Positions 734 through 60,281 of a stretch of DNA of 64,000 bases are shown here, one piece after another; the stretch's first letter is position 1, and each line of letters starts with the position of its first letter. The position numbers and the translations under genes are program-made. Source of the stretch: Hysterangium stoloniferum (taxonomy: Eukaryota > Basidiomycota > Agaricomycetes > Hysterangiales > Hysterangiaceae); assembly GCA_015178975.1 (NCBI GenBank), contig WHVD01000098.1:62001-126000 (forward strand). The letters are read 5' to 3'. A model generated the notes under the pieces. That model was not told where the DNA came from. It made no database searches and saw only the letters and a program-made list of their open reading frames with translations.

Positions 734-785
734 CGTTCCTTTCCTACGAAGAAAGATCTTATCATTGGGCTACTAAAACTCGAAC

Positions 786-4180: not shown

Positions 4181-4222
4181 CAGGGTTTTATTCCAGCCAG
4201 TTCTTCTAAGGAATCTCAACCT

Positions 4223-8508: not shown

Positions 8509-8518
8509 AAGTTTCTTC

Positions 8519-9486: not shown

Positions 9487-9659
9487 GGTGGTTGAGGGAA
9501 GAGAAGTAGAATTTCAAGCGTTAGGACCCCTCAAATTTTGATATGTAAAATTTTGCCGAGTCACATGAAGGTTTGACACACCCAGCCATACCCGACAAGT
9601 TTTACGTACGGGATCTAGATTTTCGGCCTCCCTGGGATTTCGGCCAAAAGGGGAGATAC
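9487..9659 (+). other. 3' internal end and polypurine tract of a family-2 Ty3 element
   Basis: The stretch ends AAAAGGGGAGATAC directly before the LTR start at 9660, a typical polypurine tract for plus-strand priming. This shows that the LTR at 9660 is a true 3' LTR and that the antisense gene at 8519-9486 is internal to that element. Confidence 0.7.
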
Positions 9660-10384: not shown

Positions 10385-10744
10385 GTTTTGAGAGCTGCTT
10401 TTGCAAGCTGTTCTTTTTCTATGAAAACAATACTAAAATATGAATAACAATTCACTGATTCCAAAACTAGATTCAACTTCGATTCTAGCTAGTTTATATA
10501 TAATTTATACTATTTATCAAACAGTAAAACTATTTATAAACAGGTCAAAAGGTTAGATATAGAATAAAACACTATAAGCTAATATATGCTCTATTTCTAC
10601 TAACCTACAATTCTACTGTGATATTAACTTATCAGGATCTTAGTGTAGTGCTTACAGATCTTGTGTGAATATTCTCAGTATTTATTTATGCTTAAAACCA
10701 GGTAGAAATTAGAAATGTATTCCTAATCTCAACAATGATAACCA

Positions 10745-17277: not shown

Positions 17278-17466
17278 GGTAATGAACACATCAAATAACA
17301 AAACATACAATTATTGATTTTAATGTTGACAGTCATCAGACAAACAGGCATCTGATCAACACCAAGCCCATCTCTACCTGATTCTGACCTATCACTGCTA
17401 CATACCAAAAGCGGCACGACCCTTACAGGGTGGTGGTCCCCGGTGTTTTACATTCCATACATCTAC
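17278..17466 (-). other. 3' flank of the first NTPase gene
   Basis: Nearly identical to 54925-55104 behind the second NTPase copy, so it belongs to the duplicated unit, probably as 3' untranslated sequence. Stop codons prevent a coding extension. Confidence 0.6.
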
Positions 17467-20347: not shown

Positions 20348-20944
20348 TGTGGCTAGGATTAAGCTTGTGGGTTTGACGTTATAATGCTCGTCACGTCTTG
20401 CGCTCTGGTGTGATGTGATGTCACAGCGGTCACCCGTTTATGCCTAGTACATCCATATTTATAAGCAAATTCACCTATTGATCCCAACTTTGGACATAGA
20501 TTTATGTCTGAATGTGGGAGTCCGTTGCCACATAAATCTATGATGAGATCTCTGATCTCCCTCGCTCGTGAATAATTCCTACCTAAATCTCAGTAATTCC
20601 AGTACCTCCCGGCAACTCGCTCGGTCCGGTCGCTGCTCTATGCCCTGCAGCGCCCGCCGCTGATGCCGCGCGGCCGAGTTGCCTCGGCTACCGACCTCTG
20701 GCGCTGTGGCCCGCCCGATGCCCGCCCCCTCTCACTCGTCGCCACCGCCGCCGCTACCGCATTTCTCAACCGGTTTGCTTCGCTTTTTTTTTTCGCTTTT
20801 TTTTCGCTTTTTTTTTTTCTTTTTCCTGTTATTATAACTATTCTTGTGCCTAATTTTAGTGTATTGTAATACACATTATCTTTCGAAGAAACAAATTCTT
20901 AATTATTCTTATCTATTATATTCATCCCACCCTCCTTTCTATGC
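20348..20944. other. Upstream region of NTPase gene plus a GC-rich patch
   Basis: The first 100 bp or so are shared with the upstream region of the second NTPase copy (CTCTGGTGTGATGTGA; CAGCGGTCA), which could be promoter sequence. At 20610-20820 lies an unusually GC-rich patch ending in T-runs split by CGC (20786-20820). I see no gene in it. Confidence 0.4.
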
Positions 20945-32383: not shown

Positions 32384-33328
32384 CTACAGCGGGTTGTTCT
32401 GTGTGGGTAGGCGGACTGGCGCCGCCTTCCTTGCCTTCTATTGATATGGTTAGTTCCACGGTATCTCCCATGGACCCGTTGCTTACCTTTTGGGGGCTCT
32501 CTGGCTCCCCCTCGGACTCTGATTCGATTTCTGTTACTTTGCACTGAAAATGACAAGTCAGTGAAAAAAAAAAAAATGACAAGTCAATTTGGGACTTACC
32601 TTTCCCACAACAATCGCGGCTCTGTCCGCAGCTGCCCACACAGCCTCCTCCTCATCTCTCTTCCTACAGTATCCCTTTTCTTGTTGGGACAGCGTTTGAC
32701 CGTCCCCTCGGGTAAGAACTATGCGTTGCAACTTAATGCGTCGAAGTAGCTCCCAGTCGTAAAAGATGGTACCCTCCTTCTCCTTCCAGCTCTTGGTTCC
32801 CGTCGTCCTAATACAAGGCGTCCCACCCTCGCTATCATCGGTCTCCGCGAAGTCGGCCCATTTCTCTCCCGCGGGGGGAAGGATCGGCACGGAAGCTCTG
32901 TTTCCGCATTGCGCTCTGTACTCACGCCGCTGCCGCTTGGAGGGGACTCCTTCTCTTGCTCCCCTCGCCTCCTGTTGACTTCTATACTCAGCACGCCTTT
33001 CTCTTTTGCGGGTGAGTCTCCTTGCGTTGTGTTCTTCCATAAACATTTCCTGCTTCCGCATGCTAGCAGCGACTTCCTCAGATGACGGTCTGACGGAGGG
33101 GCCTAACGGCTTGCTCCAATCCGTACCGGTACTTTTCCCCGGCTCATCACCAAAGGAGAAGGTCGACAGGGGGGTTGATTCTTGGGTACCCCAATTGCTC
33201 TCGACATTGTCTGTACGAGGCACGCAGGTGATGAATCCCCCGCCGGTCATGGATGTACTGGCTGTCGGGGCTCGTGGGACCTTTTTGAACTTAGGGAGGA
33301 CTTGCTTGTTTTGTTGGAAAGGGAGCAT
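32384..33328 (-). CDS. Spliced sense gene behind pol in element B (about 279 residues)
   Basis: Exons 32600-33328, 32487-32543 and 32384-32437, with introns 32544-32599 (GTAAGT...TTTTCAG) and 32438-32486 (GTAAGC...CAATAG); all junctions are phase 0. The protein starts MLPFQQNKQVLPKFKKVP, is Ser/Thr-rich, then has a strongly basic helix (LTRKRERRAEYRSQQEAR, then SKRQRREYRAQ) that could act as a nuclear signal or coiled coil. It goes on with EKWADFAETDDSEGGTPC and FYDWELLRRIKLQRIVL, and ends Glu-rich. No known domain recognised. Relatives sit in the same place in elements C (12347-14080) and A (start only). The env position suggests an accessory element protein; function unknown. The last exon is short and may be truncated. 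Confidence 0.6.
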
Positions 33329-33492
33329 TATAGCACGATAAAAGTGGTGAAGTTGAAGATAGAGGGAAGGGCTGTAGATAGGTGAAGGACGTGGTGTGAA
33401 AGATAAAGAAAATTTATGCGAATTTACGTGTACTTTTTTTTATATATATATTGAATTGAAACTCCGCTCGGTTGGTCGTTAAATAAAATTCA

Positions 33493-36400
33493 TTAATTGT
33501 GGCCGGGTTTTGGGGAAATGTGTCCGCTGCCAATTAATGGTTGTCCCAATCGACCGAAGGGATAGAAAAATGAAAAAGAATAAAAGCCAAAGTAGTGAGA
33601 AGGAGTAACAACCGTGTTGGGTGAAGGGGTATCTAAAGCGTAGAGATTCCTGAAAACCGGATCTTTTGAATAACCCTCTAGAAAGTTCTTTATATATCCC
33701 TCCTCGATGCCGATTAGTAGCTGAGGATGACGCAATGCGAAGTCAGACTCGTCTTCCTGGTCGTTCCTTATTGCGTTATGAGTATCCCATTCTGACCGTC
33801 GGACCTTTTGAGTTACTCCGAAAGGCTCCATAGAATCGAGTATGGTAGAGAAGACTGCTTTCTTAGCGGGTTCGTCTTTCCATAGTTTTTCCTCAGTACT
33901 CTTGTCCAGAGAGGTCGAGGTGATAGCCTGCAAATCATCTCTAATAGGGCTCATGAAGGCTGGTACCCGAGGGAGTCTGGACAGTGGATCCACGTTGCTG
34001 TGAACTCTCCCTGCTCGATGCAAAATCTCGAGACCTGGAAATGCAGCGTATATCGCCCCCCATGCGGCTAGTCGATGATTAGTGTTCTCGTAAGATCTAG
34101 CCCATTGCAGAGCTGCATGGTCCGTAATGAGCAGGACATGTTCACCTTCAATGAAAGGTTGAAAGTGGACCAGTCCCTCCTTTGCTGCTAATGCTTCCCG
34201 TTCAGTAGCAGAATAGTTACGCTCAGCGCTTTTCAGCGTGCGACTCCAATATGCAATGACTCGTTCAACAGTAACTTCGGTCGCCTCAAAAGTGGGTCCC
34301 CACGAATCCGACCACTCAATCTCGGGCTGTTTGGTTTTGTACCGATGAACAAAGGATGGCACGTCCTGCGCACGGTCAAAAGCCAATTTGGCTTGGGCAT
34401 AGATTTTAGTGTCCACTAAATCTCCTAAAGCCATCTTCTGGACTTGTTGGAGGCAACAACCCAAGGCAAAATCCGAAGCATCCGTATACAATCGGTAGGG
34501 CATCCCACTAACTGGATGTCCCAGCACTGGAGCTGATCCTAATGCGGTTTTAACATCCTCATAAGCTCGGACATGTTCAGCAGTCCACGTCCAAGGTGTT
34601 CCCTTTTTTAGGAGCGAGAATAAAGGGGACACCATCCATGAATAAAATGGTATATATGCTGAAAAGTAAAGGACCATTCCAAGGAACCGTTGTAGATCAG
34701 AAACCTTAGTGGGTGGGGCCAATTCCAATATAGCGCGAACGTTTTCTTGGTGGGTTGAAAAACCCAGCCTAGATACTTTATGACCCAATAACAATATCGA
34801 ATTATATCCAATAAAACATTTCTTGGGAGAGAGAGTGATACCAGCCAAAGCGATAGCACCAAGCACCTGATTCAGGTGAAGCAAATGATCATCCCAGTTC
34901 TTAGAGAATATGACTATGTCATCGATGTAGACTAAACAAAAAATCCACAAGTAGGGTGCTAAAACTGTTTGCATGACGCGCTGAAATGTAGAGGGGCCAT
35001 TTCTGAGCCCAAATGGCATCCTTTTAAATTGCCACAGCCCTCTATGGGATCTAAAGGCTGTTTTGGGCTTATCGTCCTCCAACATTTCTAATTGAGTAAA
35101 CCCGGCTAGCGCATCGAAAGAAGAAAGAACATTTGACCCCGACAGTGCTTGCATAATCTCCGATTGACGTGGTAAAGGGAATTCGTCTGGAACAGTGAGA
35201 TGGTTAAGTTTCCGATAGTCGATGACCACCCGCGGTTTACCATTGCGATATACTACAAAGGCTGGCGCTCCCCAGGGGCTTTTAGATGGCTCAATGACAC
35301 CCTGTTCGAACCAGGTATCCATTTGCTCGTCTATAACTCTCCTATTGGCAGGGGACGAAGGGAACATAGGCATGGATATGGGCTGGGCGCCCTCTTTCAA
35401 GGGGACAGGGACTCTACATTCCACTTGCCCTAACCGTCCGTCGACTCCAAAAGCCTTAACGTTCTCAGTCAAAACTGATCTGAGACGTGGCAGGACCTCC
35501 GTTGGTATATCCGGTCCCAAATTGACTAACTTGTGAAGATCCTCTGAGGCAAATTTCTCATTATCAGCCACTGCAGCCGTCTTAGGACCAGGCGGTTCGA
35601 AATCGTCTGCAATCTCTGGTTCAACAGGTGGCTTAGGCCTTTCTGAGGCGACTTGACGGTCCTCTTCAAGTTGAGAGAGACTTTCGATAAGGTGTGCGAT
35701 CTTGGTCGCGCCTGCTACCATTAAACCTTTCTCCTCGAGTGACCTGGGCTTGTGAGCCCAACGAGCAGGGTCATGAATTATCCCTATTGTCTCCCCTCGT
35801 CGGATAGTCTTAGGGGTTAGCGATGGATTGGCTAAAGGTACTGCCGCACTATTCCTTGAAATTGCCGTGATTGGTGTGGCTAATATAGAACCATCCTCGT
35901 TTTGCAGTACAATTCCTTCAACAATCCATTCCTCGCCCTTTAGATCTTCAACAAAAATAGGCACTAGTCTGGCTGACTCTGGATCGATAGTGCAATCCTC
36001 CAAGGCTCGGGCGACTCTTTCAGTACGCACACCTTTATCGGGGAGAGAGGTGAGTTTGGATGACTCCTTCTCATGCTTCCTGAAAGGGGCCTTATTGACG
36101 GTGAAGGTCAAAGGTTGAGGTTCCTTAGAAGAACTGGCTGGAATAAAACCCTGTCGTCCCAGGAGAATAAGTCTAGATCCCAATGGCTGATCTCTTAGAG
36201 TACCAATTTCATAATTAATATGGAAGTCTTCTCCCAAAAGAATTGGCACCATCATTCCTCTAACGACATAAGTTTCTGCCGCGAACTTCAGTAACGTTCC
36301 ACTGTCGTCCTCCAGGTAAATGGGAATATTAACATATCCGATAACCTTAGCGTTACCTGTGAGCTGGATTAGACGTAACTTGAGTCCTTGTTTCAACTTA

Positions 36401-39400
36401 TACATGCCCTGCAGTTCCTTGTAGAATTCCTCCGATATAAGGGAAAGATCCGCTCCTGTGTCCATTCGAATTTTAATGCGTTCGGGTGAATCGGGAGTTC
36501 CTACATGACCGAAAACATGGAGCGCTGCAACTCCTATGCTAGAGTAACCACTGGGAGGATCCCGTTTTCGATAAAGGATCGTAGTATCCTCCTTCATCAG
36601 ATGACTGGGACGAGGGTATTGGATTCGAGGCCTCTTACTTTCCTTGCGCAGGGACAAGATTACGTTCCTGCGTTCACTTCGGCAAGGAACATGCTTCGAA
36701 GGGGAATCCAATACTGGATCATCGCCGCTGTCCTCCGAATCCGAATTCTCGTACGGTAGTAAATCGGGGGGGTTCCCGGGATCAAACGGGAAAGTGTCAA
36801 CATCAGTTCCAGGCGAACAGAGCGAATTCGAACTGATTTGTTCATGAGAATCTCCAGTCTGACAGTAGTCCTCGGTCAGGCCTTCAAGGTCCTGCCGATG
36901 AGCACTCAGCCGGTCTCCTTTTTCGAAGAAATCTGCGGCGAGTATAGATACATAAGCTTCAGACAGAAGAGCTTCACCAGTCGTTCGATTTTCCTCCCTC
37001 ACTAATTTGTCTTCGACATGGGGCGAATAAATGGAAACAAAAGTCAATTCGTCATCAAAGTTATTTACTTGTCCTTGTATAGATAGTCCATGAACCGCTT
37101 CATATAACCTTTGCTCCTCAGCTTCCTCCGACATATCCTGTGCGGAGCATTTGTTGATAGAAACATAATGAGACATTTTGCCAGCTTGAGGGCAGTCTAT
37201 CTTAAAATGCTCCGGACTTCCGCATATCCAACATTCCTTGGTGGGTTTGACCGAACTCCTCTTGTTACTCCTCTCGAAGAACATTTTTCCGTGATGCTTT
37301 CCCTGTTTTGGATCAGCGACGTCTGGAACGGTCCTTCTCGTCGAGCCTCTCTCGTTAGTCTCACTAACGAGAATATGGTTAGGTGAAGAGGAGTCGCCGG
37401 TGACTCTAAAATCCAATTCTTGACCCTCCGATAACATTACGCACGGTTTCTGGAACCTGTAACGTTCCCGGTGTGTTTGGACCCAAGCGTTAATCAGAGC
37501 TTCTTGCAGGTTATTAGCATAAGTCTGTAAACTCATGATATCATCGATGGGTTGTCCTTGAAGAAGGTAGAGCCATTCCGTAGGCAGTGTGAGAATGAGT
37601 CTGCATGTCTCATCCCCTCTCTCCTGGTGGAACCCGTACAGGAAACGATAAAGTTTAACTCTCCGTTGGATATAGTGGACGGGTGTCTCATGATCGTGAC
37701 CAGCCTGTCGAAATTTCATAGCTTCCCAATCTAAGGCTAAGGATTCACGCCAACGAGTTCCGAGCAATCCTTCGACGATACCCCAAAGAAACGACCCATG
37801 AGATTGACTGAATTCAGTACGGTGCTCACGGTCTAAGGTGCTCCACCAGACCTTAGCGTGCCCCTTGAGTCGTCTTGGCAGAGCAACTCCTAAGATCGCA
37901 CTCATAGAGTCTGATATCTCCGCGAGACTCATGATATCCATGATATAGTCCAGGGCTTCGGATTGAGCTCCATCGTATTCAGGGAGATCAGACCATTTGA
38001 TCTTGAGGTCGTTGGTGTTAAGAGTGACCTTCTTGTCCTTAGGTAAGTCATCAATAAGCGCGCTAGCTCGAGACCGCATCGGAGTTCGAAAAGGGGTATT
38101 AGGCACTCCATTGTGACGTTCCCCACGTCCTGAGTTCCCTCCCCAGTCTGAAGTATTCGAACTCCCAGATGAATCGCTAGGGGGTCCTCCTGATGGCAAG
38201 AAAGGGTTTGAAGTGATCGGTAGAGAATGGCGGGGACCGTCTGGATTAAGCGATCCTCGACCAGCAACTGGGCCAGCTATGCCCTCAGTGAATGCCGTGG
38301 AGAAGGACGGTCGACCCTTGTTGGCGACTGATCGGTTTCTGAGAGTGGTCACTTCATCCCTGAAGTTAGGGCTGTTGGAGACTCCCTCAAATGCGACGCG
38401 AGAGCGGTGATCTCCCTGGAAAGACGTTAGGCCCGGTTCCATCGCGATTTGTCTCTCGATCTCCATCGCGTTCAGAAGTCGACACGGCTGGGGTTGATGG
38501 AAGGGAGTGCAGACCTCAATCCTCTTCTCCTGAAGGCGTTCTATCACTTGCGTCCTCAAGTCCCGTGGAAAATCCTCCAATATTACGGGACGGTTGAGAG
38601 AATGCAGAAAACGAGTATCAGGGGACCCGTTTAAGTTGCGAACGAACAAATTGGTCGTGGAGATAGGCGAATCAGGGACCTGGATCGAGTCGTTATAGGG
38701 GAGGAGTACCTCTAAAACCATCTTATCAAGTCTTCTTTGGTTTCGCTTCAACCGACCTCTTAAAGTGAGGTATGCCAGCGATAGATTTGGCGTGACTCCA
38801 TTGAGAGACTCCTCCAACATACGGATGTACATGTACTGGTAGTCAACCTTAGGCACAACATGATCTCCGCCAAGCAGGACATGCAGGATCTGCAACACAT
38901 CATCATGCGTACGAAGTGCTTCAAGGAACATAGAAAACACCTCCCGCTTGAGAATTCTTCTTCCTCCTTCCATAGTAGTCGTCACCTCGTTCAACCATTC
39001 AGGAATCGATTGGGTCAAATCCTCAAGGTTCCCTGGTCGCGTGAATAAATCCCGCGCCGATAAAATCGCTTGATAACGCCCTAACCAGACTGCTACAGTC
39101 TCCAGTAGAATAGGGTAATCTGTACTGTACTCCTCCATGAAGGGGGTAACCTGATCCTCGGGGATTCGATCGGTGTAGTACATATCCCATTTGTAATCGA
39201 TGGGCTGGGCGTAAACCATATGACCTCCGAGGAACTGCTTAAGGATGACCTGTCTCGGAGGGAATCTGAGAACGGGCGTGGGTGCTTGATTAGACTCAAC
39301 GTTAACTCCAGGGGTGTCCAACTGCTCGAGTAATGAGCGTTCCTCCGGTGGATCGGGGGGAATGTTCATTGACGATCCAGCTACTACTCCGGGGGAATCC

Positions 39401-39617
39401 TCTGGAGGAGGTGATCCTGGAGGAAGCTGGGGAATGTTCGTAGATGATCCAGCTACTACTCCGGGGGAATCCTCCGGAGGAGCTGATCCTTGAAAAGTCA
39501 ACGAAGACTTCTCAGGGTGACGTTACGGGGTGGTTCTAGGTTAAAAGATTTTTGACGAGGCATGGAGCTACCCGGCGTTGATGAAGGCCTAGATGTTTGA
39601 TTCTTGCCCGTAGTCAT
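33493..39617 (-). pseudogene. gag-protease-RT-RNase H polyprotein of element B, no integrase
   Basis: An open frame of 2002 codons (33493-39501). By comparison with A the original start is ATG at 39617, with one base missing near 39513. In order: gag with the zinc knuckle CWICGSPEHFKIDC, protease MDTGADLSLI, RT with YIDD, and RNase H TDASDFALG. The frame then runs past SHYF into the 3' tail and stops at 33493, so the last 25 or so residues are not element protein. The integrase HHCC finger, DDE core and chromodomain are gone. The N-terminus has a tandem duplication of about 20 codons (EDSPGVVAGSS units) not seen in A. It would need integrase from another element. Confidence 0.85.
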
Positions 39618-43100: not shown

Positions 43101-43595
43101 TGTCACAAATCAAATTTTACTCAATAAAGTCAAATAAACAATCGAAGAATATTCAACAATATCGAATAAAGATGCCTCATTCGACGAAGTACTAATTTGT
43201 CCTGTTGATAAAGCATGAGGCAAAGATTGGACACAGAGGCTCATGAATAAATAAGTCGAAGAAAGGCTCGGAAAAAGTTCAACGATTATATAATACAGTA
43301 ATAATATAATATAGTACAGGTTTTCTGACTGACTTCCTTCGTTCCTATCATTGCCCTTATATGTATACTATATATCATTTACCTATGATGATAATATGAT
43401 ATCAAAGTGAAATCATCAATGACATCAACCTGAGACAAGTTGAAGATATTCAAGATTGTCGAAGATATTGTCGAAGAATAGTCAAGTCAGAAGTTGAGTC
43501 GGAAATTGAGTCGAAAAGTTGAAGGAATGTCGAAGAAATGTCGAAGAAATATTAAATTGAATATTATCGAAATTTGAGTTTGTACGTTTGTGACA
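43101..43595 (+). repeat. Solo LTR, family 4
   Basis: A 495-bp LTR with 9-bp terminal inverted repeats TGTCACAAA/TTTGTGACA. Flanks TCTCC and TCTTC are a duplication with one mismatch. It lies within the Tc1 element. Confidence 0.85.
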
Positions 43596-43976: not shown

Positions 43977-44521
43977 TGTTATGACCCGTTCCCAGATGTT
44001 TCAATATCCAACTCCCGATCTCCAACTACGGAACATCATAGTTACCATATCTTCCGCATTCTTCCCTTGTTCCGCATTTGGTAATTTGTCCGTTGACAAG
44101 TATTCACTTGTTTGTTTATTATATTCCCATTTCGGAATATTGTCTCCCTGATATGTCTTATTGTATTCCTGTTTTAAGAATACTTCCATTTCCGTCTTAT
44201 TATGGTCTCAGTTTGTAGTACAATAACAAGAAGATTTATATTAGTTTCCGTGAATTTGTACTTTACCTTAGATCTGATATCGACTTAGTTTCTTATTCCT
44301 TCTTCCGTCTTTCTGTATGCTCGATATTCGGAACTCTTTGGAACTCTGAATATCCGTATCTTCCATCGTAAGTCTCACCTCTGAAATTAAGGACTTTGAG
44401 CGTTTGCGTAGAGGCGCAGCACATAAGCTGAAGCCAACGTCCTGACCCTATCCGATAAGTTCCTGACTTCCTGGTGACTTTCCGATAGTTCCGGAATAAG
44501 TTCCCAACACGGCACTTAACA
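43977..44521 (+). repeat. 5' LTR of element D
   Basis: 545 bp, TGTTATGACC to GGCACTTAACA. The shared LTR block (AAGCTGAAGCCAACGTCC variant) is at 44425-44442. The sequence TTTATATTAG at 44235-44244 lies about 30 bp upstream of AGATCTGATAT, the likely transcript start. Confidence 0.9.
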
Positions 44522-46468: not shown

Positions 46469-49400
46469 GCATTGACTCTCTCCGTGTTTCCGAGGTTATC
46501 CGTCTCAATGCATCCGCTCTCTCTAATCCCGATTCATTATTTGTAAAACTCGTCTCTGACTTTCTTGGAAATTTAGTGTTCTGAGCTCTGATAGATTCCG
46601 GCTCCACACACTGTTTTGTAGATACCACCTTTGCCACAAAACATAATCTGAAACTCCATTCTGTTCCTGCAAGTTCCTTGCGTTTGTTTGATGGCACTAG
46701 CAATACGGCAATTACCCAAGCCTGCGACATGTCTATCTGGTTCCCTTGTGGAACATCCCAGACGGTTACCTTTTTCGTAACACAGTTGGACTCTAGCTGT
46801 TCGGTAGTTCTTGGATACAACTGGCTCACCCGATATAATCCATTGATTGACTGGGTATTGGGCAGTATTAATTTCCGAATTCCCGACACTTCAGTTCCTC
46901 CTGCAGCATCTTTTCCGGCCAATGCCTTTTCGGCATCAATGGCATCTCTGGCTTCTACCGAAACCTCCGAGCCTCCAAAAATCTCTCTCATCAATGCTTC
47001 GGCATTTGTTAGGGCGAGTAAACTGGATGGTTCGCAATGTTTTTCAATCAGCTTAAAAGTTGATGAAGCATCTGGATGTTTTGCGACTCCAGAATTATCT
47101 GAGCTAAAAGCCGACCTGGAAGGAGTTCCCAAAAAATACCATGATTTCGTGGACATTTTCAGTAAGCAAAAAGCTGACAGGCTTGCACCACATAGGCCCT
47201 ACGACTTAAAAAATTGATATTGAGCCCGGTTCAAACCCTCTGTTAGGACCTATTTACCCATTATCCCAATCGGAACTTTCATCCATTCGGGAGTTCCTGG
47301 ATGAACATCTGTCGATAGGTTTTATCCGTCCCTCAAAGTCTCCGTACAGAGCACCCATCCTTTTCGTCAGAAAGAAGGATGGCTCCCTTCGACTCTGTGT
47401 TGATTTCAGAGGATTAAATTCCATCACATGGAAAGATAAGTATCCACTTCCACTCGTTACCAATTTACTCGATGCCCCACGGAAAGCTCGAATTTATACC
47501 AAAATAGACCTCAAACACACTTATCATTTGGTTCGAATTGCCGAGGGCAATGAATGGAAAACTGCTTTTCAGACTCGCTATGGATCCTTTGAATGGTTGG
47601 TTATGCTGTTCGGCCTTACCAACGCACCTTCCGCTTTTCAACGTTTTGTTAATGATATATTTTCTGACATGCTTGACATATGTGTTATAGTCTATTTGGA
47701 CAACATTTTGGTATTTTCCGAGGATCCTGCTCTTCATGATGAACAGGTCCGTGAAGTCTTCCAAAGACTCCGTAAAAATGGTCTTTTCGCCAATGGTAAA
47801 AAATGCTACTTTGACATGGATTCTATTGAATACTTAGGTTTCATTATCGGACCTGAGGGTCTTCGTATGGACGAAACCAAGGTTCAAGTTGTCCATGATT
47901 GGCCCAAACCACAGAAAGTCAAGGACATTCAGTCATTTTTAGGTTTCGCCAACTTTTACCGTCGTTTTATTCAGAATTACTTGGATATTACAGTACCGCT
48001 CACTCGTCTTACCCGTAAAACTCAACCATGGATCTTTGACGACAAATGCCGCTCTGCTTTCCAGACTTTGAAAAATGCTTTCACTTCTGCCCCGATTCTT
48101 TCCCATTGGAAACCTGATGTTCCGATTATTGTGGAAACCAATGCTTCCGATTATGCAATTGCCACGATTCTTTCCATTCAAGATTCTGATGGTGAAATTC
48201 ATCCAGTCGCATTCCTTTCTCGGACACACTACGATGTTCATGATAAGGAACTTTTGGCAATTTTTGAGGCTTTCAAACATTGGCGCCATTATCTCGAAGG
48301 TTCCGCAACTCCCGTTGACGTTGTTACTGATCACAAAAATCTCGAATATTTTTCTACCACTAAACTTTTAACCCGGCAAGCCCGCTGGTCTGAATTCCTT
48401 TCCACTTTCAACATGATTATCCGTTTCTGACCTGGACGTCTTGGTGGAAAACCAGATGCCATGACTCAACGATGGGATGTCTATCCTAAAGAGGGGGAAA
48501 GTAACTATGCCATTGTTAATCCGCATAACTTGAAACCGGTTTTTACAATGCAACAACTTTCCGCATCTATTCGAGCAACTTCCCTCTACTATCCAATTAT
48601 GCGTAGTGTCATGATTATGGACATTGAGCAATTACATCAAGATATCCTTTCCGCACTCACTTCCAATCCGGCTCTCAAGCCACACCTAGAAGTTCCTGAC
48701 AATCCTGACCAACCCTGATGGTCACAAGACTCTCAAGGTTTTATCCGTCTCGATGGACGTATCTACGTTCCAGATTCCAACAATCTCCGACTCCACATAC
48801 TTCAGTATAAACACAATAATCCAATCTCCGGACATTACAGCATTAACAATACTCTTGGTTTAATCCGTAGAGAATACACTTGGCCCAACCTCCGAGATTT
48901 TGTAACCCAGTTCTGTAAGTCATGCACCACCTGCTTACACTCCAAAACCCAGAGGCATAAGCTGTACGGCCTTCTCAAGCAACTTCTGATACCGGAAAAA
49001 CCCTGGAACTCAATTTCCATGGATTTTATCAAACAACTTCCGACGTCTGAAGGCTTTACATCCATTCTAGTTGTTGTGGATTGATTCTCGAAACAAGGCA
49101 TTTTCATACCCACCCATGATACAATCACATCCTTACAATTAGTGGAACTTTTCATTATTCATGTATTTTCCAAACATGGAGTTCCGTCTCATGTAACTTC
49201 CGATCGAGGTTCCAAGTTCGTCTCCCATTTCTTCCAGGCCCTCAGAAAAGCCCTCGACATGAAACTACACTTCACCTTGGGATATCACCCAGAAGGTGAT
49301 GGACAAACAGAACGTGTAAATCAAACATTGGAACAATATCTCCGCATCTATTGCAATTATCAACAGGACAACTGGAAATCCCTTCTTCCGATCACGGAAT

Positions 49401-50102
49401 TCGCCTACAATAACTCTCTGAATGCAACTACCGGTGTATCTCCTTTTTTCGCCAACAAAGGCTATAATCTGAATCTCACTGTACATTCTGAACGAGATTT
49501 GGCTTCTGTCCGTGCTCAAGAATTTATTACCGACCTCGACGAATTACATGAAGAACTTCGGAAAGCTATTTCTTCCAGACAGGAATATTACCAATGTTCC
49601 GTGGACAAAAACAGGATCCCGCCTCCTAATTTTAAAATTGGTGATCAGGTTTTTGTAAAAGCTCAATTCTTCCATACCACCCGACCTTCTAAAAAACTCG
49701 CTGAGAAATTCTTAGGCCCTTTTGAAATTATAGCACAAGCTGGTTCACTTTCATGGACTCTCCGACTTCCTGACAGTATGCGAGCAGTCCACCCCATTTT
49801 CCATGTTTCCATGTTAGAACCCTGTGTTCCTAACAAAATCCCAGAATGTATTCAACCTCCGTCCCCTCCAGTCATCAATTGATGGAGAACCCGAATTTGA
49901 AGTTTCCAAAATTTTGGATTCTAAAATTGACAATCGCCGACGTACTTGTAAATTGCTCTATTTAGTCAAATGGGCAGGTTATGAAGGTACCAACGAGGAA
50001 ACTTCATGGATATTGGCCATGGAACTTGGACATGCTATGGAAATTGTTACTGACTTCCACACAGCTTATCCAAGCAAACCCAGACCTTTATCATCACTCT
50101 AA
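46436..50102 (+). pseudogene. Pol of element D: protease to chromodomain, with many stops
   Basis: In order: protease ALIDSGSTHCFVD (near 46590), RT from about 47220 with YLDN at about 47694 where YxDD is expected, RNase H with VETNASDYA (the first Asp also changed to Asn) and VVTDHKNLEYF, the integrase HHCC finger (C-K-S-C-T-T-C near 48920), the DDE core (SMDFIKQLP, TSDRGSKFVSHFF, HPEGDGQTERVNQTLEQ), and a chromodomain (FEVSKILDSKIDNRRR, LVKWAGYEGTNEETSWI) at about 49890-50060. Damage: TGA near 46583, 48428, 48716 and 49081, one extra A near 47212, and a frame change near 49880. At least three TGAs stand where Arg CGA is usual for the family. Confidence 0.85.
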
Positions 50103-50201: not shown

Positions 50202-51756
50202 CTATTTTAGAGTCTCTGATACCCCAAATCCACTTTCCATCCTGACTCCCATCTTATCAGCAACCTCCGCACTTTCCACCATATCCTGCACCTCTTCATC
50301 CTCACTCTCTGATACTTCCAGCCCATTTCCTGACTCCCACCTTTTCTCGACACATTCCACCAATGGATCATTAGGCTGTTCCCGTGCCTTATCAGAAAAT
50401 CTCTCGGATACTGCGATAACACCGATGCTAACCATTATCTTCTCCAGAAATTCGTTTTGCCTCTGGAAATTCCGGATCAACAAATGGAAACCCTTTTCCT
50501 GGATCTCATTATGGCGATCTAGTGTATCCCACATTTTCATGACTTCCGTCCCAATAAAGACCAACGCGTCAACGGTGTCCTTGAGGAGCTCAATGCCCGT
50601 ACCATCCATTTTCAGCACCTCAGTTTCCACAGCTTTGGCTGCTCCCGAACTTTCCACATCATTAGTTTTCTGAGCCTTCTCACCTTTTGGAACCCTTTTC
50701 GAGGCGAGAGTGCACAGAAGTTTAAGAACCGCACAGGGATAGCAAGTTCCACCCCATTTTACCTTCTGTTTCCAACACGTCATATTCCATATGGAACATT
50801 GATAACATGGGTTGTCATGGACGACTTCCATCCGTTCCGGAGCCTTGACCTTTGGCTTCTGTTTCAGAAGTTAATCAAATACCGACCTTTTGCAGATGCA
50901 CTTACTTTAGGACTCGAAGGTCCAGCCTCTCCCTCTACCTCCACCTCCACGGCTTTTCGCTGTACCCAATAGTTATCGGTTGGAACCATGGAAAATTTAT
51001 GGATTGAACTTACCTTTCCTTCCCTTATCTCCTTAAGTTTTTCCGCCACCTCTGACTCCCACTGTAATCTTTCCGCCTCTTCCGCCTCTTTCAACTCCTG
51101 CATCAACGCCTTTTCCTCCTCCTCCTGTCTGTCATGAACGTACAAACTCAAATTTCGATAATATTCAATTTAACATTTCTTCGACATTTCTTCGACATTC
51201 CTTCGACTTTCCGACTCAACTTCCGACTCAACTTCCGACTCAACTATTCTTTGACAATATCTTTGACAATCTCGAATATATTTGACTTGTCTCAGGTTGA
51301 TGTCATTCATGATTTCACTTTGATATCATATTATCATCATAGGTAAATGATATATAGTATATAAGGGCAATGATAGGAACGCAGGAAGTCAGTCAGAAAA
51401 CCTGTACTATATTATATTATTTACTGTATTATATAATCGTCGAACTTTTTCCGAGCCTTTCTTCGACTTATTTATTCGTGAGCCTCTGTGTCCTATCTTT
51501 GCCTCACACTTTATCAACAGGACAAATTAATACTTTGTCGAATGAGGCATCTTTATTTGATATTGTTGAATATTCTTCGATTGTTTATTCGACTTTATTG
51601 AGTAAAATCTGATTCGTGACACTATCATGACTTCAACTCCTCCATCCTTTGTCGTTTTTGTTGAAGTTCTGCGACCTTCAACATTTTTTGAAGTACGGCA
51701 ATTTCGGTATCTGAATCTTCCAGGGTAGTGATGAATAATGGCCGACGAATTGACAT
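50202..51756 (-). pseudogene. Spliced antisense gene of element D: coiled coil and Zn2Cys6-like cluster
   Basis: Exon 1 (51014-51756, start ATG at 51756) is a charged helix (TEIAVLQKMLKVAELQQKR; then EEEEKALMQELKEAEEAERL), split by the family-4 LTR at 51130-51621. Intron 50960-51013; exon 2 50906-50959 (RKAVEVEVEGEAGPSSPK); intron 50859-50905; exon 3 50202-50858. Exon 3 has six cysteines spaced C-x2-C-x6-C-x10-C-x2-C-x6-C, then a long helical part and an acidic C-terminus. Exon boundaries and the GPSSPK end of exon 2 match the copy at 8519-9486. Its stop is 100 bp from the pol stop, tail to tail. Apart from the LTR the frame is open. Function is inferred from spacing; it resembles fungal Zn2Cys6 factors but lacks their usual long middle domain. 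Confidence 0.75.
51130..51621 (-). repeat. Solo LTR, family 4, inside the antisense gene
   Basis: A 492-bp LTR in minus orientation (TGTCATGAACG on the plus strand at its left end), flanked by CTGTC and CTATC, a duplication with one transition. It provides a false Met upstream of the second half of exon 1. Confidence 0.85.
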
Positions 51757-51941
51757 GCAAGTTGTGGATAAAGAAACAAAAACATTAATTCGAATATTTG
51801 GAGATTTTTATACTCAGAACAACAGCCAAAACTCTCACCTCCAGAATTGCATAAATTTCACGACACATAATAAATCAGCTGTCGCTTCAATCACTCAGTA
51901 CCTAATTGCCTCTATGGGACTTTGGCCTAACAGGGGGGTAC

Positions 51942-53785
51942 TGTTACAACCCATTCCCAGATGTTTCAATATCTGACTCCCAATCTCCGACTACGGAACA
52001 TCATAGTTACTGTAATGTATTCAGGGGATTCTCTTAGATAGCTCAATATATGCTATAGTGTCACAGAGCTTCAACAATAAAACAAGCAAAGGTCCAGTAA
52101 TTTAAATACTGATAGATTAATGAGCTGCACTATGAAGCTTAAACAACTCAAATCAATGCTTATTTTGATTATTGAAAGGTTCAATAGAACTGTGTATGAC
52201 TCTTTTAGCAAATACAAGAACTATTCCTTGAGAATAGGGGCTGGAAGCTGAATATATGCACAGTAACTTGGCAGAGACTTGATATAAGAGCTTCGGATTC
52301 TTGTATGCTTATTTGTAACTATTAATAGTTATTTAACAAGGTGTTAAATAATTTATTAATAGAGAAAATAATATGTATTGGATTATCTGAGTGCTTGTAC
52401 TTGATTAATTCAATAAACTTAGGGCTGGGCCTTGAATAATCTAGTATTGGCAGGGATTCCAGTAAGGATACTTAGATACCTATTAGGTTTATTATCTAAT
52501 TAATAAGCCTAAAGGTAACTGTGAGGCAGGGGAACTTAGATGATTAGCTAAGTCCAAGAGTTGCTGACAAAGATTCAAGATGCTGCAAGTGTAGGTGCTT
52601 GCAGTGAGTGTATCAGACTAAGGCTATTATTGTCCTTAGGATGATTAGATAAGCTGGTGCTGTGCTGCAAAATGTGAGAGAGATAGATTATTTTATTGGA
52701 AACTTAGCCCTCCTTATATACATTTTGATAACTCAATGATTAGCTAACTATTTAGTTTATGAGGTCATTAGTTAGATCATAATGACCTCATATTCTACTC
52801 ATTATTTACCCTTTGTCTATCATGTGATTCCCTTCTCTGAGACAAGAGTTGTAACCTCTTGCTTGAACATGAAGGTTCAAGGCCGTGGTCCCGGGATGGA
52901 AGCAAACGATGAGTCGGCGGGATCTAATAATGACTCGGGTAGTCACGTTCGTGACTTGTGTGACTCGGGTAGTCACATTCATGACCTTTGTGACATCCCG
53001 ACACCGGAGGCTTATCTAATAAGTCACATGACTTCAAAAATGCGCAAACTGGGCTGCAAGCAAGGTGCCAAAAGGTAATAACTAAGTAAATAAAATATAA
53101 ATAATTAGTTAAAAATTATAATAAATTAACTAAGATATAATAGCATAATATGAGTTCATATATGCTATTATTATGTGAAGTTAAAAGGAATAGAGCCTTA
53201 TATTTCACAATAAAAATATAATAAAAATACAATAAATTTGAAAGAATATTAAATAATCCACAGAAAATTAAGAGGATATTATAAGATGATGCTGATACAT
53301 CACAGTTACCATATCTTCCGCATTCTTCCCTTGTTCCACATTTGGTAATTTGTCCATTGACAAGTATTCACTCGTTTGTTTATTATATTCCCATTTCAGA
53401 ATATTGTCTCCCCGATATGTCTTATTGTATTCCCATTTTAAGAATACTTCCGTTTCCGTCTTATTATGGTCTCAGTTTGTAGTACAATAACGAGAAGACT
53501 TATATTAGTTTCCGCGAATTTGTACTTTACCTTAGATCTGATATTGACTTAGTTTCTTATTCCTTCTTCCATCTTTCTGTACGCTCGATATTCGGAACTC
53601 TTTGGAACTCTGAATATCCATATCTTCCATCGTAAGTCTCACCTCTGAAATTAAGGACTTTGAGCATTTGCATAGAGGTGCAGCACATAAGCTGAAGCCG
53701 ACATCCTGACCCTATCTGATAAGTTCCCGACTTCCCAGTGACTTTCCAATAGTTCCAGAATAAGTTCCTGACACAGCACTTAACA
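51942..53785 (+). repeat. 3' LTR of element D, split by a 1.3 kb LTR
   Basis: 51942-52010 joined to 53310-53785 gives 545 bp, exactly the length of the 5' LTR. It has the same 11-nt AGATCTGATAT and the shared LTR block (53690-53706 region, here AAGCCGACATCC). The element ends at TTAACA 53785. Confidence 0.9.
52011..53304 (-). repeat. Solo LTR related to family 3 inside the D 3' LTR
   Basis: A 1294-bp insertion with TGTAATGTAT/ATACATCACA ends and exact GTTAC flanks (52006-52010, 53305-53309). The ends match family 3 but most of the inside differs. A TATA-like TTATATACATTTTG near 52714 points to minus orientation. A 32-bp tandem duplication (GACTCGGGTAGTCAC units) lies at 52934-52995. Confidence 0.8.
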
Positions 53786-54617: not shown

Positions 54618-55104
54618 TAGATCCCTAAGCCTATGTCACCACTACTCTTCCATGTTAATTTCAAAGTTTATCATTGGATTTTAAAGGATTTTTGGATTAT
54701 TTTTAACAGAGGAGGATTTGTGATAAATAGTTTTAGTTAGAGTTTCTTTTAAAAAAGAGAATTTATGATAAATAGTTTTAGAGATCCTCAGTTGTTCTTA
54801 TATATTCAACTAATTTTTCTGCCACCTTATTATCTATATTTACCTTAGAAAACAATTCATGCTGTAGATACCTCCAGCACAAAGAAGATAGAACATTATA
54901 TCACTACCACTAGATTTCTCACTGAACACGTCAAATAACAGAACACAGCTATTAATTTTAATGTTGACAGTCATCAGACAAACGGGCATCTGATCAACAC
55001 CAAGCCCATCTCTACCTGATTCTGACCTATCACTGCTACATACCAAAAGCGGCACGACCCTTACCGGGTGGTGGTCCCCGGTGTTTTACATTCCATGCAT
55101 CTGC
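54618..55104. other. Flank between Tc1 element and second NTPase gene
   Basis: 54618-54920 is AT-rich with a short repeat (ATTTATGATAAATAGTTTTAG-like) and no gene. 54925-55104 matches the 3' flank of the first NTPase gene. Confidence 0.5.
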
Positions 55105-57994
55105 TCAGCCACATCCACCAAACCATTTTGTAGCAGCTTGATGCCCTGTCAGCACAGGCAACATCTGCCGCAGTGCAGGGACACCATAATCGCGAGAGTG
55201 ATTGACAAACATGGCATCTCTTGAGCGATTAATCATCGCTTGAATTGCTGTTCTGACTTCATTAGTGATGTTGCGGTATGCGCTAATGCCACGGAAATCA
55301 ATTTGGTAGCGGGGTGCTTCCATATCATACATTGGGAGTCGGAAGTTGTATTGGGTCGGGCTTGTGACAGTAATACCTTGGTTCTCTGTTAAGGCATAAC
55401 AATGGACGGTAGCAATATAAGGCAGTTTGTTGGCATGCGAAAAGATAAAGAGGTCTTCGGCAGATTGGATCCCGACCTTACAAGGATTCACCGACTGACC
55501 CGTTTTGTCTTGGTCAAGATTTACTGAAACTGTTTTTGGAGAGACATTTCCTCGACTAGAAAAGTAGATAGGGGCCATACGGTTGGTAAGATCCTGATTT
55601 AGCTGACATACAACTGCTGTCCCGCGTAACCAAATTGCCCAGGCGTATTTATCACGCATCGGAGTAGAGTCATTTGCCTTCGCATAGTGGGAGAAATGGA
55701 AGTAGGCATCTTCAAATGCATCTTCAAAAGTTTTGCTTGCAGAGGTCAGGCTCAGCCGCGTACGGTTAGCAGGTATGGATTGACGAAGATCCTTCCATGC
55801 GTCATCGGTAAGAAGGGCCTTGTAGTAATCTGCGACTCTCACGGGTGTCTGGTATTTGAGGTCACAGACCTTTCTTAATCCATTAATCGCGTGGTCCATC
55901 GCAGAAATACTGAGAGCGCGACCAATCAGCTCTCCAATGGCGCCTTGCCATGCCAAGCCATGATCAACAAATTCCATCAACAGATGCCATAAGTCCATGT
56001 ATCGGCTCCCATTCATATTGTAATTCATGATCTGCGCGGATGCTTCCGCAATAAGAGGCTCAGGGGATGATCCGGTCACGATTGTTTGCCTGTTTTCATG
56101 CACCGAATAAAGCATTCGCAGGTGGTTACGCACTAGTTCTTCTTCGAATCGTTTTGCATAGACGGCAGCAGGAGAGAGGTCAAGAAGAAGTCGAGCAGAG
56201 AGAATGGCAATTGATGACACATCAAGTTTGGCTGGCGCCTCTGGGGGCCAAGTGCGGCCAGAAAGCTTCTCACGGATAATGTGCATGATTACATCGTCCG
56301 TCATACTTGCTTCCGAGCCTTTACGAGACAAATAGCTCGAATAGAATCTGTAGTGATGAAGAGGAATGTGAGGTTACAAAACAATCAAGTTAGGTCAACC
56401 TACAGAGGTCGTCCAAATTTTGCCGCAAATTCCAAAGTACCAACAGAAGTCAAGGTCGCTTTGTTGGGGACAAGGGGGTCGGCAATTATATGAACATCAA
56501 ATGGAAGTTCCGTAAACAGGGCAGGAAGAAGACGTTCATCATCTCTTTCGCGAACAGATGGTGCATTCTCTTTCGATGATGCGAGGCGAGGAATTTGGCT
56601 TGCCGTCGAGAGACTGACGACTCCAAAAGCGCACATGACCACCTCGTTTAACACCGACTTCATGCGCGAGTACAAGGTATAGTCCGATCCTATGTCTATT
56701 TTACGATGTGTGTAGAGCACATGGACCTCGTCCAAAGAAATGAGGATGGGGCAGACAGAGGTCGATGGCCAGTCAGAACAGCGCCGCTTCAAACCCTCCT
56801 GAAGCTCTTGAAAAGATTGCTGGACATTTTGAGAAGAGGTTTTTACAGCATTTTTGACCACAACTTCATAGAACTTCATTCTCTGCGGCATATCCGCAAA
56901 GAGATCATAGAAGAGCTTCGCCATTTGCACATATGTTATTGTACCCATAGGAATAAGCCGCTGGACTTCAAGATGCGCTGATGCGAAGAGAGAGGATAGG
57001 AATGATCTGATGTGCGCCTTGCAACTAACTTCGTCTGCTGTACCTGGTGCAAGATAAAAGTAATTGCGCACTGCTGTGTCGGAAAGAGGGTATGCTGGAG
57101 TAAATGTAATCAACTCTCCATCAAATATTCAGAATCCATGCCACGGACCAAAATAATTTTTCCCAAGCTCCTCGCGTAAACACATGGGGAAGAGAATCCG
57201 CTCCCTGGCAACTACGTCCACAGTCTTGGATTTTCCCGTTCCAGACGATTGGGCGATGGGGATAATTTTGGCGTAATTTCGCTCTACTGGTAGTACGTGA
57301 AGATCATCGATGGCTCGGAGCAGGATTGTGTGCGCGTTGCCGTGGTATTGCATACCCCATGCACTTACTACGGCTAGATCACAAATCTGGTCATTGTGGT
57401 AATGACTAAGGTTATGGACAGACGTACCATCCTCTAAGCCAGGATAAATGTGAGTATAATATCAGAATGAAATGGGGGGAGATCAAGCGTACTTAGTTCC
57501 ATTGGAACACCCAAGGCTACCTTCGGCCACATTGGATTTCGGAGCTTTGCTGTGATTGTGGTTAAACCCGAACGAACCATCCGACAGTCCAAAATATACG
57601 TACGATGCGTAATTAGACTACTCCAATCATTCTTTTCCAGACCTTTCCTCATGCCAACATCCCATTGTTCCACCTCCATATCATTAAACCTTCTCAGAAT
57701 GTTACATCCTTCTTGCAAACCTGGAGGCGCGATAACATCGCTTTTCAATTCTGTCTTCGCTACTTCCAAAAGGAGGTACTCCAAAACTTGCGAACACAGC
57801 TCAACCCAGTCTTCATAGTCACTAGCCTCCTCAAGCGACTTTGACCAGTTCGAAAGCTTCGAATGTCGCTTCATCTTGACGTTTAGCGCATCTAGATCAA
57901 CTCCAGCCTGGTCCAGGATCGAGGAGGAAGATGAAGAGCCAGAAAGGCCTCCTGAACTAGGTATGTCAACATCCATTCCATGATCATCCGTCAT
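55105..57994 (-). CDS. P-loop NTPase, second copy (906 residues, 4 exons)
   Basis: Exons 57493-57994, 57149-57433, 56404-57094 and 55105-56347, with introns of 59, 54 and 56 nt at the same places as in the first copy. The Walker A (QSSGTGKSKTV) and Walker B-like (PILISLDEVH) motifs are kept, with Phe changed to Leu in the latter. The N-terminal exon differs from the first copy at roughly a third of its residues (residues 30-75 are quite different), while the start of exon 4 is identical over more than 200 residues. Both copies are open throughout, so both may be expressed. Role unknown; see the first copy for family notes. Confidence 0.8.
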
Positions 57995-58548
57995 TGTAGC
58001 TACGATTAAGTTGCACTCTGGTGTGATGTGAGGTCGCAGCGGTCAACCGTTTTCTTCCCCTATTTGTAAGCAAATTAGCCCGAGTGGACATATGTGGGAC
58101 ATAAGCACCACTCCGGAACCACTTCTGGAGTGCTGGAAGCGCCCGGACTCTCTTGGTAGACTAGTAAACGCTCCGATCATTTTGGAACCCATTTGCAGTA
58201 TTCACCCTTCTGGCAACCCGCCTTTCAGTATTCCTTGTATCATTCTATTGTGTTATTCACTTTGTCTAAACCTCATATTGTTTCTGTCTACTTACTAAAA
58301 TTGAATGGGGCATAAGTTGAGTCCCTTTACGGGACTCTTTGGGGGAGACTTGTGCCTAAAACCCACAATCCACGAGAAGTAATCATTCCGTTTACACTTC
58401 TATGCTTATGTAGCGATGTGCTACTATATCTCTCAGGTATGTCACCCCCCTACTTGGATGTGTCAGGATTATTATTATTATATACGATAACAATAATATA
58501 CATCAATTGCTCCTTTTATCAAAACAATCAAAGAACACAACCATCGTA
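57995..58548. other. Intergenic region
   Basis: The first 90 bp or so resemble the upstream region of the first NTPase copy (CTCTGGTGTGATGTGA), so promoter sequence of the NTPase gene probably lies here. The rest holds no ORF or repeat that I can support. Confidence 0.5.
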
Positions 58549-60281
58549 TTATTGCGCAATTTCATTCTCAATGGCCTCCATATCTTCAGCTTCAGCCTCA
58601 GCCTCAATAAAATTATAACCGCTGTCTATGGGAATGTTGGCATCCTCAACAACTTTCTCATCTTTAGCTTTAGCTTCAACCTCAACGAAACTATACTCGC
58701 TGCCATCGCCCCCGCTTCCCATAGCAGTATCAGTAACAGCTTCATCCACGGCGACGTATTCTAATGCGGCAGTGCTGACGACTGCATCTGGCATATTAGC
58801 ATCTTCCGGCGAAGGCGACAACTCGGGAGCTTCATCCACGGCGACGTCTTCTAATACGGCAGTACTGACGACTGCATCTGGCATATTAGCATCTTCCGGC
58901 GAAGGCAACAACTCAGGAGCTTCATCCACTGCAACGTCTTCCAATACGGTAGTGCTGACGACTGCGTCCGGCATATTAGCATCTTCTGGTGAAGGCGACA
59001 ACTCAGGAGTTTCATTCACAGCGACATCTTCTAATGCGGCAGTGCTGACGAGTGCGTCTGGGATATTAGCATCTTCCGGCGAAGGCAACAACTTGGGAGC
59101 TTCATCCACGGCGACGCCTTCTAATGCGGCAGTGCTGACGACTGCATCTGGCATATTAGCATCTTCTGGCGAAGGCGACAACTCGGGAGAAGTGGTGGGC
59201 ATCGGAATGGCGGCCTGCAGCGCCCCCCACGCCTCCATCTTCCTCTCATCCAACATGGCTAATTCACGCTCGATCCTATTCACCAGCTGTTTCCGCACTT
59301 TCCTTACAACATCATCTCCATGACTCTCAACCGCATCCAGCTTCGACAAGAGCTTCACAAGACCATTGTCATGCCCATGTAACGGTGCATTGTGTGGGGT
59401 GTAAAGAAGTGTTGGCCCGCTTTCTGATTCAGAGAAATCGAGGATCGAGGGGAATATGAACTGTGAAGTAAGATTTTCAAACTGTCGAGCTATTGCGCCG
59501 ATGGCATTGAGAGCTTTGAGGCGTGGAAGTCGTGTACGGAAGAAGGACTGGATGTTCTGAGCAGCTTGAACGTGGGGATCTGGTTTTGGAGAAGCGGTTG
59601 GTCGGACCTGCTGTGTGGGTGCGGATGGGACCTGTTGTTGAACTGTAGGCCCCGGGGATGGAATGTGCTGCTCAAACGGCGAAGAAGTCATCTAAATAAA
59701 GATAAATCGATCAATAAAATGGATGAACATCTCAAAGAATTGATACTTACCTGCTTGGGGGAATCTCTCGATTTTGGCACAGGTGATTCTTTGCGTTTCG
59801 GTGAACAAGATGCTTCCTATGATACCCATATAAAGGTGAGAAATTTTATACAGATAACAAAGTTTCTCAAATTACTTACCATTGAACGACATCTTGGATG
59901 GACGGCATTCTGCTGTTGGACAACATGGTCCAGATAATCATCGAGGTCACTCTGGCCATCATATATAACCCAAAAACTTGAGGATGGCTCATAACCATCT
60001 TGAATATCATATCCTCGCATGAAAGGGCTGTACAAATCCCGACGACGACGCTCTGCTTCTTGAGCTCTGGCAAGCTGCTCCTGGTATGCTCGGCGGCGAA
60101 GTGCATCTTCGACCTGTGCTCTGTAAAGTTTTTCTTGAAGCTGAGCCTTGTATTGAGCTTCCCGATATCTACGGGCTCCCTCAGCAGCTACAGCGTGACA
60201 GTAATCATCGAGGTAGGAGTCTTCGTCGTGGTAATAATAAGGCGAGCTAAGGTGATGACGCTGAGGGTAGAGTGTGTACAT
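58549..60281 (-). CDS. BAG-domain co-chaperone with IQ motif (536 residues, 3 exons)
   Basis: Exons 59880-60281, 59751-59816 and 58549-59691; introns 59817-59879 and 59692-59750, both GTAAGT...AG, all phase 0. Residues 1-134 form an Arg/Glu/Gln-rich helix (YREAQYKAQLQEKLYRAQ). An IQ-like NIQSFFRTRLPRLKAL lies at about 203-216, then the BAG region (VKLLSKLDAVESHGDDVVRK, VNRIERELAMLDER) at about 261-306, which in the family binds the Hsp70 ATPase domain. The C-terminal half is acidic, with five copies of a 30-residue repeat (SPEDANMPDAVVSTA core). Similar fungal BAG proteins have this IQ-BAG order. Host gene, cytosolic by inference. Confidence 0.85.
58741..59190 (-). repeat. 90-bp tandem repeat, five copies, inside the BAG gene
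   Basis: Five in-frame copies code for the acidic 30-residue repeat. Copies differ by a few substitutions each. The array is prone to length change by slippage or unequal exchange. Confidence 0.85.

Follow-up and report, generated by a model that had tools for sequence, protein, structure and literature searches.

Does a spliced gene for a Zn2Cys6-like protein, lying in the genome of the basidiomycete Hysterangium stoloniferum on the strand opposite to the pol gene of a Ty3/gypsy retrotransposon, belong to that retroelement, and, if so, what could it do for it? We addressed this question starting from a window of 64,000 nucleotides (assembly GCA_015178975.1, contig WHVD01000098.1, positions 62,001 to 126,000; all coordinates below are those of the window), which contains one copy of the gene in an element referred to here as D and a second copy in an element of another type, A. 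At the level of the family, the answer to the first part of the question is strongly supported: the locus represents an antisense gene of the element itself, interrupted by introns that are spliced out.

An antisense gene between pol and the 3' LTR

The hallmarks of Ty3 elements, namely LTRs, a polypurine tract and a 5-bp target duplication, are present in element D. Its 5' LTR (43977–44521, plus strand, 545 bp, TGTTA...TTAACA) and its 3' LTR (51942–53785, plus strand) share 93.9% identity over 489 bp, and the flanking bases, CAAAG before the 5' LTR and AAAAG after the 3' LTR, agree at four of five positions. The 3' LTR, which follows the polypurine tract ACAGGGGGGTAC (51930–51941, plus strand), is enlarged to 1844 bp by a nested insert of about 1.3 kb (approximately 52000–53296); this insert contains a 30-bp tandem repeat at 52931–52994. 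The pol region, on the plus strand, comprises a reverse transcriptase and RNase H part (47210–48430), an integrase core with a Tf2-1-like SH3 part (49085–49882) and, in another frame, a chromodomain-like tail (49872–50102) that ends with a stop at 50100–50102. The Pfam models RVT_1, RT_RNaseH and SH3_Tf2-1 were matched above their cut-offs and rve below it (20.0 vs. 32.6 bits), and the chromodomain-like tail was placed only by aligning D copies with a foreign pol across the Pfam Chromo domain of the latter. The order of reverse transcriptase, RNase H and integrase, with the SH3 and chromodomain-like parts at the end of pol, is that of a Ty3/gypsy chromovirus, in this case a decayed one, the pol of which is broken as a whole.

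As the first-pass annotation had proposed, the antisense gene of element D lies tail to tail with pol and ahead of the polypurine tract and the 3' LTR; its stop is about 100 bp away from the pol stop, and its start about 185 bp away from the LTR. Its parts, all on the minus strand, are exon 1 (51014–51756, with the start codon from 51756), which is E/K-rich and coiled-coil-like by eye, intron 1 (50960–51013, 54 nt), exon 2 (50906–50959, 54 nt, RKAV...GPSSPK), intron 2 (50859–50905, 47 nt) and exon 3 (50202–50858). Both introns begin with GTAAGT and end with ACAG, so the three-exon structure with GT..AG introns and with GPSSPK at the end of exon 2 was found as described earlier. The open frame of exon 3 codes for the cysteine cluster, a long helical region and an acidic tail, followed by the stop, and the six cysteines of the cluster (50712–50807) have exactly the spacing claimed for them, C-x2-C-x6-C-x10-C-x2-C-x6-C. 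A TATA box, TATAAAAA (51805–51812, minus strand), is located 56 bp upstream of the start codon. Although the structure of the gene is present, this copy is broken, its exon 1 being split by a 492-bp insert (51130–51621, minus strand; first bases TGTCAC, last bases TGACA, flanks GATAG/GACAG), which by its looks is a solo LTR. A repeat copy 93% identical to the insert is located at 43101–43595, ahead of the 5' LTR of D. The aligned relatives are continuous at the insertion site and lack the insert.

The second copy (8519–9486), which had been presented as a match to the first, consists of exon 1 (9187–9486, 300 nt), intron 1 (9137–9186, 50 nt), exon 2 (9059–9136, 78 nt, RKAV...GPSSPK), intron 2 (9008–9058, 51 nt) and exon 3 (8519–9007), again on the minus strand; to its right lies the 725-bp 3' LTR of an A-type element (9660–10384, plus strand). 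It does share with the D copy the cysteine spacing (cluster at 8867–8962), the phase-0 introns and the GPSSPK end, but a premature in-frame TGA at 8747–8749 interrupts its exon 3. The earlier reading had to be corrected as to the left side of this copy, which is not its own element: at a breakpoint at 8489 the tail of the A-type element is joined to an element of another Ty3 lineage, with pol at 4181–8125. All 29 A-type relatives (L040–L068) are homologous to the window interval 7000–10500 only rightwards from 8489/8491. The A-type pol and the D pol are 80.5% identical over 338 aa, and the pol at 4181–8125 is 25–29% identical to either of them.

The other Ty3 lineage, which at 8489 replaces the left-hand portion of the A-type copy, is represented in the window by a pair of copies (915–8490 and 33169–39422) that are 92.5–93.4% identical. 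The pol of one of them (4181–8125) includes a Pfam Chromo domain, and the other one has a gag-pol frame of 2009 aa. Two further features were noticed among the A-type copies. L063 is a rearranged element, in which a gag-like frame (329–1366, plus strand), recognized by reading, runs in the direction of the antisense gene, with the junction between them lying within antisense exon 1. In L067, an A-type LTR adjoins a D-type antisense gene-like fragment, about 710–844 bases into the LTR stretch.

Placement and selection across the copies

In searches of the H. stoloniferum genome, the D protein (P0001) yielded 1007 first-look candidates, of which the best 150 were scored (all with E ≤ 5e-100), and the A-type query yielded 395, of which the best 150 were also scored. 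The homologues did not turn out to be mainly free host genes. A chromoviral pol is the tail-to-tail neighbour of the gene at 69 of the 78 distinct places. Before removal of three doublets, and with L039 (the second copy of the window, beside its foreign pol) still scored as a match, the count is 72 of 81 entries. The remaining entries comprise seven without pol in the stretch examined (six of the 78 distinct places), one with an overlapping pol and one without the gene. The gap between the gene and pol, as measured from alignment ends, is mostly 100–200 bp, with a range of 46 to 942. The view from the pol side was similar: at least 111 of 150 chromodomain matches have the gene tail to tail within 1.5 kb. 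This number is a lower bound, as the gene places compared with the pol ends were the 150 scored D matches and 66 more, the best of longer lists. Among the 150 listed matches none has the gene in another orientation, and 39 have no gene among the places compared. In these terms, the gene qualifies as an antisense open reading frame: it is encoded on the other strand, in the interval that separates pol from the 3' LTR, and this holds for many copies per family. Moreover, 14 of the 150 pol matches listed have frames of at least 1200 aa, and 13 of these 14 are adjoined by a match to the gene, an indication that it is present in recently active elements. P0005 of H. stoloniferum (BU17DRAFT_62310) and matches in the same genome make up a third subfamily of antisense proteins, related to that of D; P0005 is 56% identical to P0001 over 136 aa, and the pol context of this subfamily comes from coordinates only.

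These numbers bear on the possibility that the gene was captured from the host and is carried as a passive, decaying passenger. Capture of host genes by retroelements is mentioned in the available text of PMC7264820, and many single copies of the gene are broken, including both copies in the window: among the 150 scored D matches, 42 have a stop in exon 3 and 108 do not, and there are more in exon 1. However, nearly all of the long pol frames among the matches listed adjoin the gene, and protein searches revealed no clear free host homologue, with the surroundings of P0003 and P0004 left aside and six of the 78 places lacking pol in the stretch examined. Two families whose proteins have only 24–27% identity also keep the position, introns, TATA spacing and cluster of the gene. 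We consider a passive passenger highly improbable.

Selection was assessed by comparing the substitutions with the same kinds of change placed randomly on the same sequence. The odds of nonsynonymous change in the antisense frame were 0.47 for exon 3 of D (30 copies), 0.44 for exon 3 of A (45 of 50 loci) and 0.56 for exon 1 of D (17 copies), and those in pol were 0.54 (9 copies). For the frame of the opposite strand that shares wobble positions, the odds were 0.47 in D, equal to those of the antisense frame, and 0.60 vs. 0.44 in A. Since the two strands score equally in D, it is the odds in A, together with the introns and the cysteines, that decide the strand. The lengths of the introns deviate from the commonest one by non-multiples of three in 11 of 23 (intron 1) and 8 of 23 (intron 2) D copies, and in 4 of 30 and 14 of 30 A copies, respectively; for exon 2 such a deviation was seen in one of 23 D and one of 30 A copies. 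Additionally, two public and possibly purely predicted gene models of H. stoloniferum, P0002 and P0003, span an identical junction of exons 2 and 3. As the introns are on the antisense strand, they would stay in the sense genomic RNA, which may explain their survival through transposition.

A TATAAAR motif precedes the start codon at an almost fixed distance, −56 in D (22 of 25 copies) and −57 in A (28 of 32). Conservation of this distance between families whose proteins are so different points to an antisense promoter. Cysteine codons are kept in 160 of 162 cases in D and 261 of 264 in A, as compared with 85% and 87% of other codons, and the complete set of six cysteines is found in 23 of 29 copies of D and in 41 of 44 of A, with gaps counted as losses. 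This excess may be partly mutational, since cysteine codons contain no CpG. Taken together, the sequence comparisons establish the gene, its position, introns and TATA position, the selection on it, its cysteines and its rapid divergence.

One could ask whether it is the antisense transcript, rather than a protein, that acts, either by pairing with genomic RNA, which would lead to small RNAs, or by transcription interference. The antisense orientation and the TATA box of its own would suit a functional transcript, and such roles are discussed for plant antisense open reading frames (aORFs) in the available text of PMC7264820, but selection at the codon level and the retention of cysteines speak for a protein, and we regard an action of the transcript itself as quite improbable.

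The cysteine cluster and its likeness to Zn2Cys6 domains

The A-type protein has about 292 residues, arranged as an E/K-rich region (coiled-coil-like by eye), the RKA...GPSSPK segment, the cluster, a helix and an acidic tail, and the D-type protein has about 350. The proteins encoded by antisense exon 3 of A and D are 24–27% identical, with 80% identity in pol, and their clusters match each other by profile comparison (probability 91.5%). All six cysteines are also present in an outside homologue, the ENA/Logan protein P0006, which shares 39% identity with P0001 over 160 aa. Zn2Cys6 domains follow the spacing rule C-x2-C-x6-C-x5-12-C-x2-C-x6-8-C, and the clusters of A, D and P0006 all conform to it.

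The profile match expected for such a domain did not materialize: neither P0001 nor any of five A-type proteins matched Pfam Zn_clus (PF00172), even at E ≤ 10. The genome contains 42 Zn_clus matches, none of them on the contig of the window. Comparison by hhalign with eight Zn_clus stretches taken from this genome gave weak results (probability 47% for A and 7.7% for D), and LEU3 was matched only at E = 5. In the AlphaFold2 model of the A type, a helix-strand-helix-strand succession runs across the cluster with low confidence and is followed by one confident helix (55–124). The D-type model is poor (pLDDT 47), and a Foldseek fold search, with the cluster modelled at low confidence, retrieved no match. 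Gal4-type clusters are composed of helix-strand halves with a helix behind, the arrangement of the A-type model. In Zn2Cys6 domains, the stretch from the second to the third cysteine usually contains basic residues, and a proline usually precedes the fourth; the D cluster lacks these basic residues, and both A and D lack the proline. Basic stretches accompany the A cluster. The antisense protein is thus alike to fungal Zn2Cys6 transcription factors (PF00172) in its cysteine spacing, its low-confidence helix-strand halves and the helix behind them, and differs from them in the lack of a profile match and in having the cluster in the middle of the protein. Of the Zn2Cys6 identity proposed at first, the spacing and the conservation of cysteines stood, but the profile searches failed and the profile–profile comparison was weak. 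The term Zn2Cys6-like, as used here, refers to cysteine spacing and conservation only, which support it.

A cysteine cluster accompanied by basic stretches, as in A, would also suit a nucleic-acid-binding accessory of the replication cycle, serving in RNA export, packaging or nuclear import of the pre-integration complex; accessory roles are proposed for plant aORFs in the text available of PMC7264820. We think this unlikely, as the rapid divergence of the protein and the CGG-rich motifs in U3 (see below) suit DNA targets better.

Candidate sites in the LTRs and a possible role

Zn2Cys6 factors bind CCG/CGG triplets; Leu3, for instance, binds CCG-N4-CGG. The start of the D LTR contains units of the TCCGAYY type, which form an array of 23, 37, 44 or 58 bp between fixed anchors (28/28 copies); its length, therefore, changes only by whole 7-bp units. 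In the D copy of the window, the array site with which the U3 of the 5' LTR opens (44007–44031, plus strand) is decayed, and so is that in the 3' LTR (51972–51996, plus strand), where one intact CCG is left between the anchors. In three of the four D copies tested, CCG/CGG triplets recur every 7 bp in a run of four, which was reached in 1–3 of 2000 shuffles; the fourth one, L036, has a run of two only, which was reached in 1926 of 2000. Not even a run of two at this spacing is present in 12 of the 28 D copies, which we ascribe to CpG decay. Elsewhere in the window, runs at 7 bp never attain three triplets, and two runs of four occur at other spacings, 6 and 11 bp.

The LTRs of A have a module of their own, CGG-N7-CGG-N2/3-CCG, which is present three times in 12 of 35 copies and once or twice in 18, and is absent from five. 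In 2000 shuffles of one LTR it appeared once in five and never more often, it is present once in 1 of 28 D LTRs, and all five modules found in the window are in A-type LTR sequence. These LTR motifs were picked after looking, and a test of all pair spacings was not significant for four A copies (264, 355, 291 and 634 of 1000 shuffles reached the observed maximum) and was significant for D only in L028 (9 of 1000), L010 and L038 not reaching significance (132 and 166). By eye, the differences between the copies L009–L038 look dominated by C/T and G/A, many of them at CpG; this suggests methylation, and it is the pattern expected of methylation-driven decay.

In the reading that we prefer, and to which we would give an even chance, the antisense gene is an accessory gene of a chromoviral Ty3 lineage, and its product is a self-regulator of its own family that binds the LTRs at the candidate CGG sites. 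We infer that the gene is expressed, being transcribed against gag-pol from its own TATA promoter beside the 3' LTR and spliced twice. The product would consist of an N-terminal coiled-coil-like region, the Zn2Cys6-like, putatively zinc-binding cluster and the long helix behind it, and most likely it would dimerize and bind CGG-type sites in the U3 of its own LTRs. Once bound, it might set the transcription of its own family or relieve silencing. With the arrays in U3, one of them precedes gag-pol and the other one the antisense promoter, and the 5' LTR sites would affect gag-pol, the 3' LTR sites the promoter of the antisense gene itself. The mode of this putative regulation could be activation, repression or prevention of silencing.

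More tentatively, as a possibility that we hold to be somewhat doubtful, the family-specific zinc-cluster protein and the CGG arrays of the LTRs may co-evolve, providing fungal elements with a means of self-recognition that serves control or anti-silencing and has its parallels in plant VANC and retroviral HBZ. HBZ of HTLV-1 is a coiled-coil, DNA-binding-type bZIP protein of a retrovirus, made near the 3' LTR from a spliced antisense transcript. The antisense promoter of HTLV is inside the 3' LTR (PMC7264820, in the text available). The parallel with HBZ is in layout only, and no common descent is claimed. VANC is encoded by VANDALs, which are not LTR elements, and it is the closest working parallel with evidence. 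This Arabidopsis protein binds tandem-repeat motifs and causes loss of methylation, and it resembles the Hysterangium protein in being element-encoded, in having variable regions and in its association with tandem motifs in noncoding element DNA (PMC5735166, in the text available). The DNA binding of the Hysterangium protein is, in comparison, putative.

A stricter version of this parallel would make the antisense protein an anti-silencing factor like VANC, which binds tandem motifs in the noncoding DNA of its own family and removes or blocks DNA methylation, in place of classical activation or repression. The combination of a fast-evolving protein with a conserved pol, the variation of the D array by whole units, the family specificity of the motifs and the C/T and G/A differences suggestive of methylation all fit this, as does the fact that VANC targets are often tandem repeats that vary between related elements (PMC5735166, in the text available). 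On the other hand, the cysteine cluster suggests the type of binding used by fungal transcription factors, and we consider a VANC-like factor rather unlikely. The preferred reading, LTR-binding self-regulation, if true, would mean that fungal retroelements can encode transcription-factor-like regulators of their own.

It had also been suggested that a gene of this kind was not described in fungal chromoviruses. Boty-like elements of Botrytis cinerea are said to carry an antisense gene, brtn, reportedly described by Zhao et al. in 2011. Both plant elements and Boty are known to have antisense genes behind pol (PMC7264820, PMC8365987, PMC4227169 and PMC5987419, in the text available), and the review PMC7264820 gives the function of such genes in LTR elements as undetermined. 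Fungi, therefore, already offer a precedent for an antisense gene located behind pol and ahead of the 3' LTR. Its zinc-cluster version appears to be new, as none of the titles and abstract beginnings surveyed on retrotransposons, antisense genes and zinc clusters in fungi showed such a gene. Compared by description only, Boty is alike in being a fungal LTR element with gag-pol, a chromodomain and an extra antisense gene, and differs in its ascomycete host; the parts of the descriptions at hand state no cysteine cluster, introns or function for brtn. Plant elements with aORFs, likewise compared by description, are alike in the place and orientation of the gene, and gene23 of Grande has its own promoter upstream, as proposed here for the Hysterangium gene; no zinc cluster is mentioned for the plant genes in the text available (PMC7264820). 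The Hysterangium lineage offers hundreds of copies, comparative evidence of splicing, a fixed TATA, a cluster of DNA-binding type and candidate LTR sites, which makes the role of antisense genes directly testable.

Two other repeats were noticed in the window. Elements at 17283–20363 and 54923–58010 form a pair 95% identical over 3.1 kb and have minus-strand open reading frames: two of 422 and 242 aa, neither of which matches Pfam at E ≤ 0.001, and one of about 210 aa. A tandem array with a 90-bp period, in about five copies, occupies 58648–59189.
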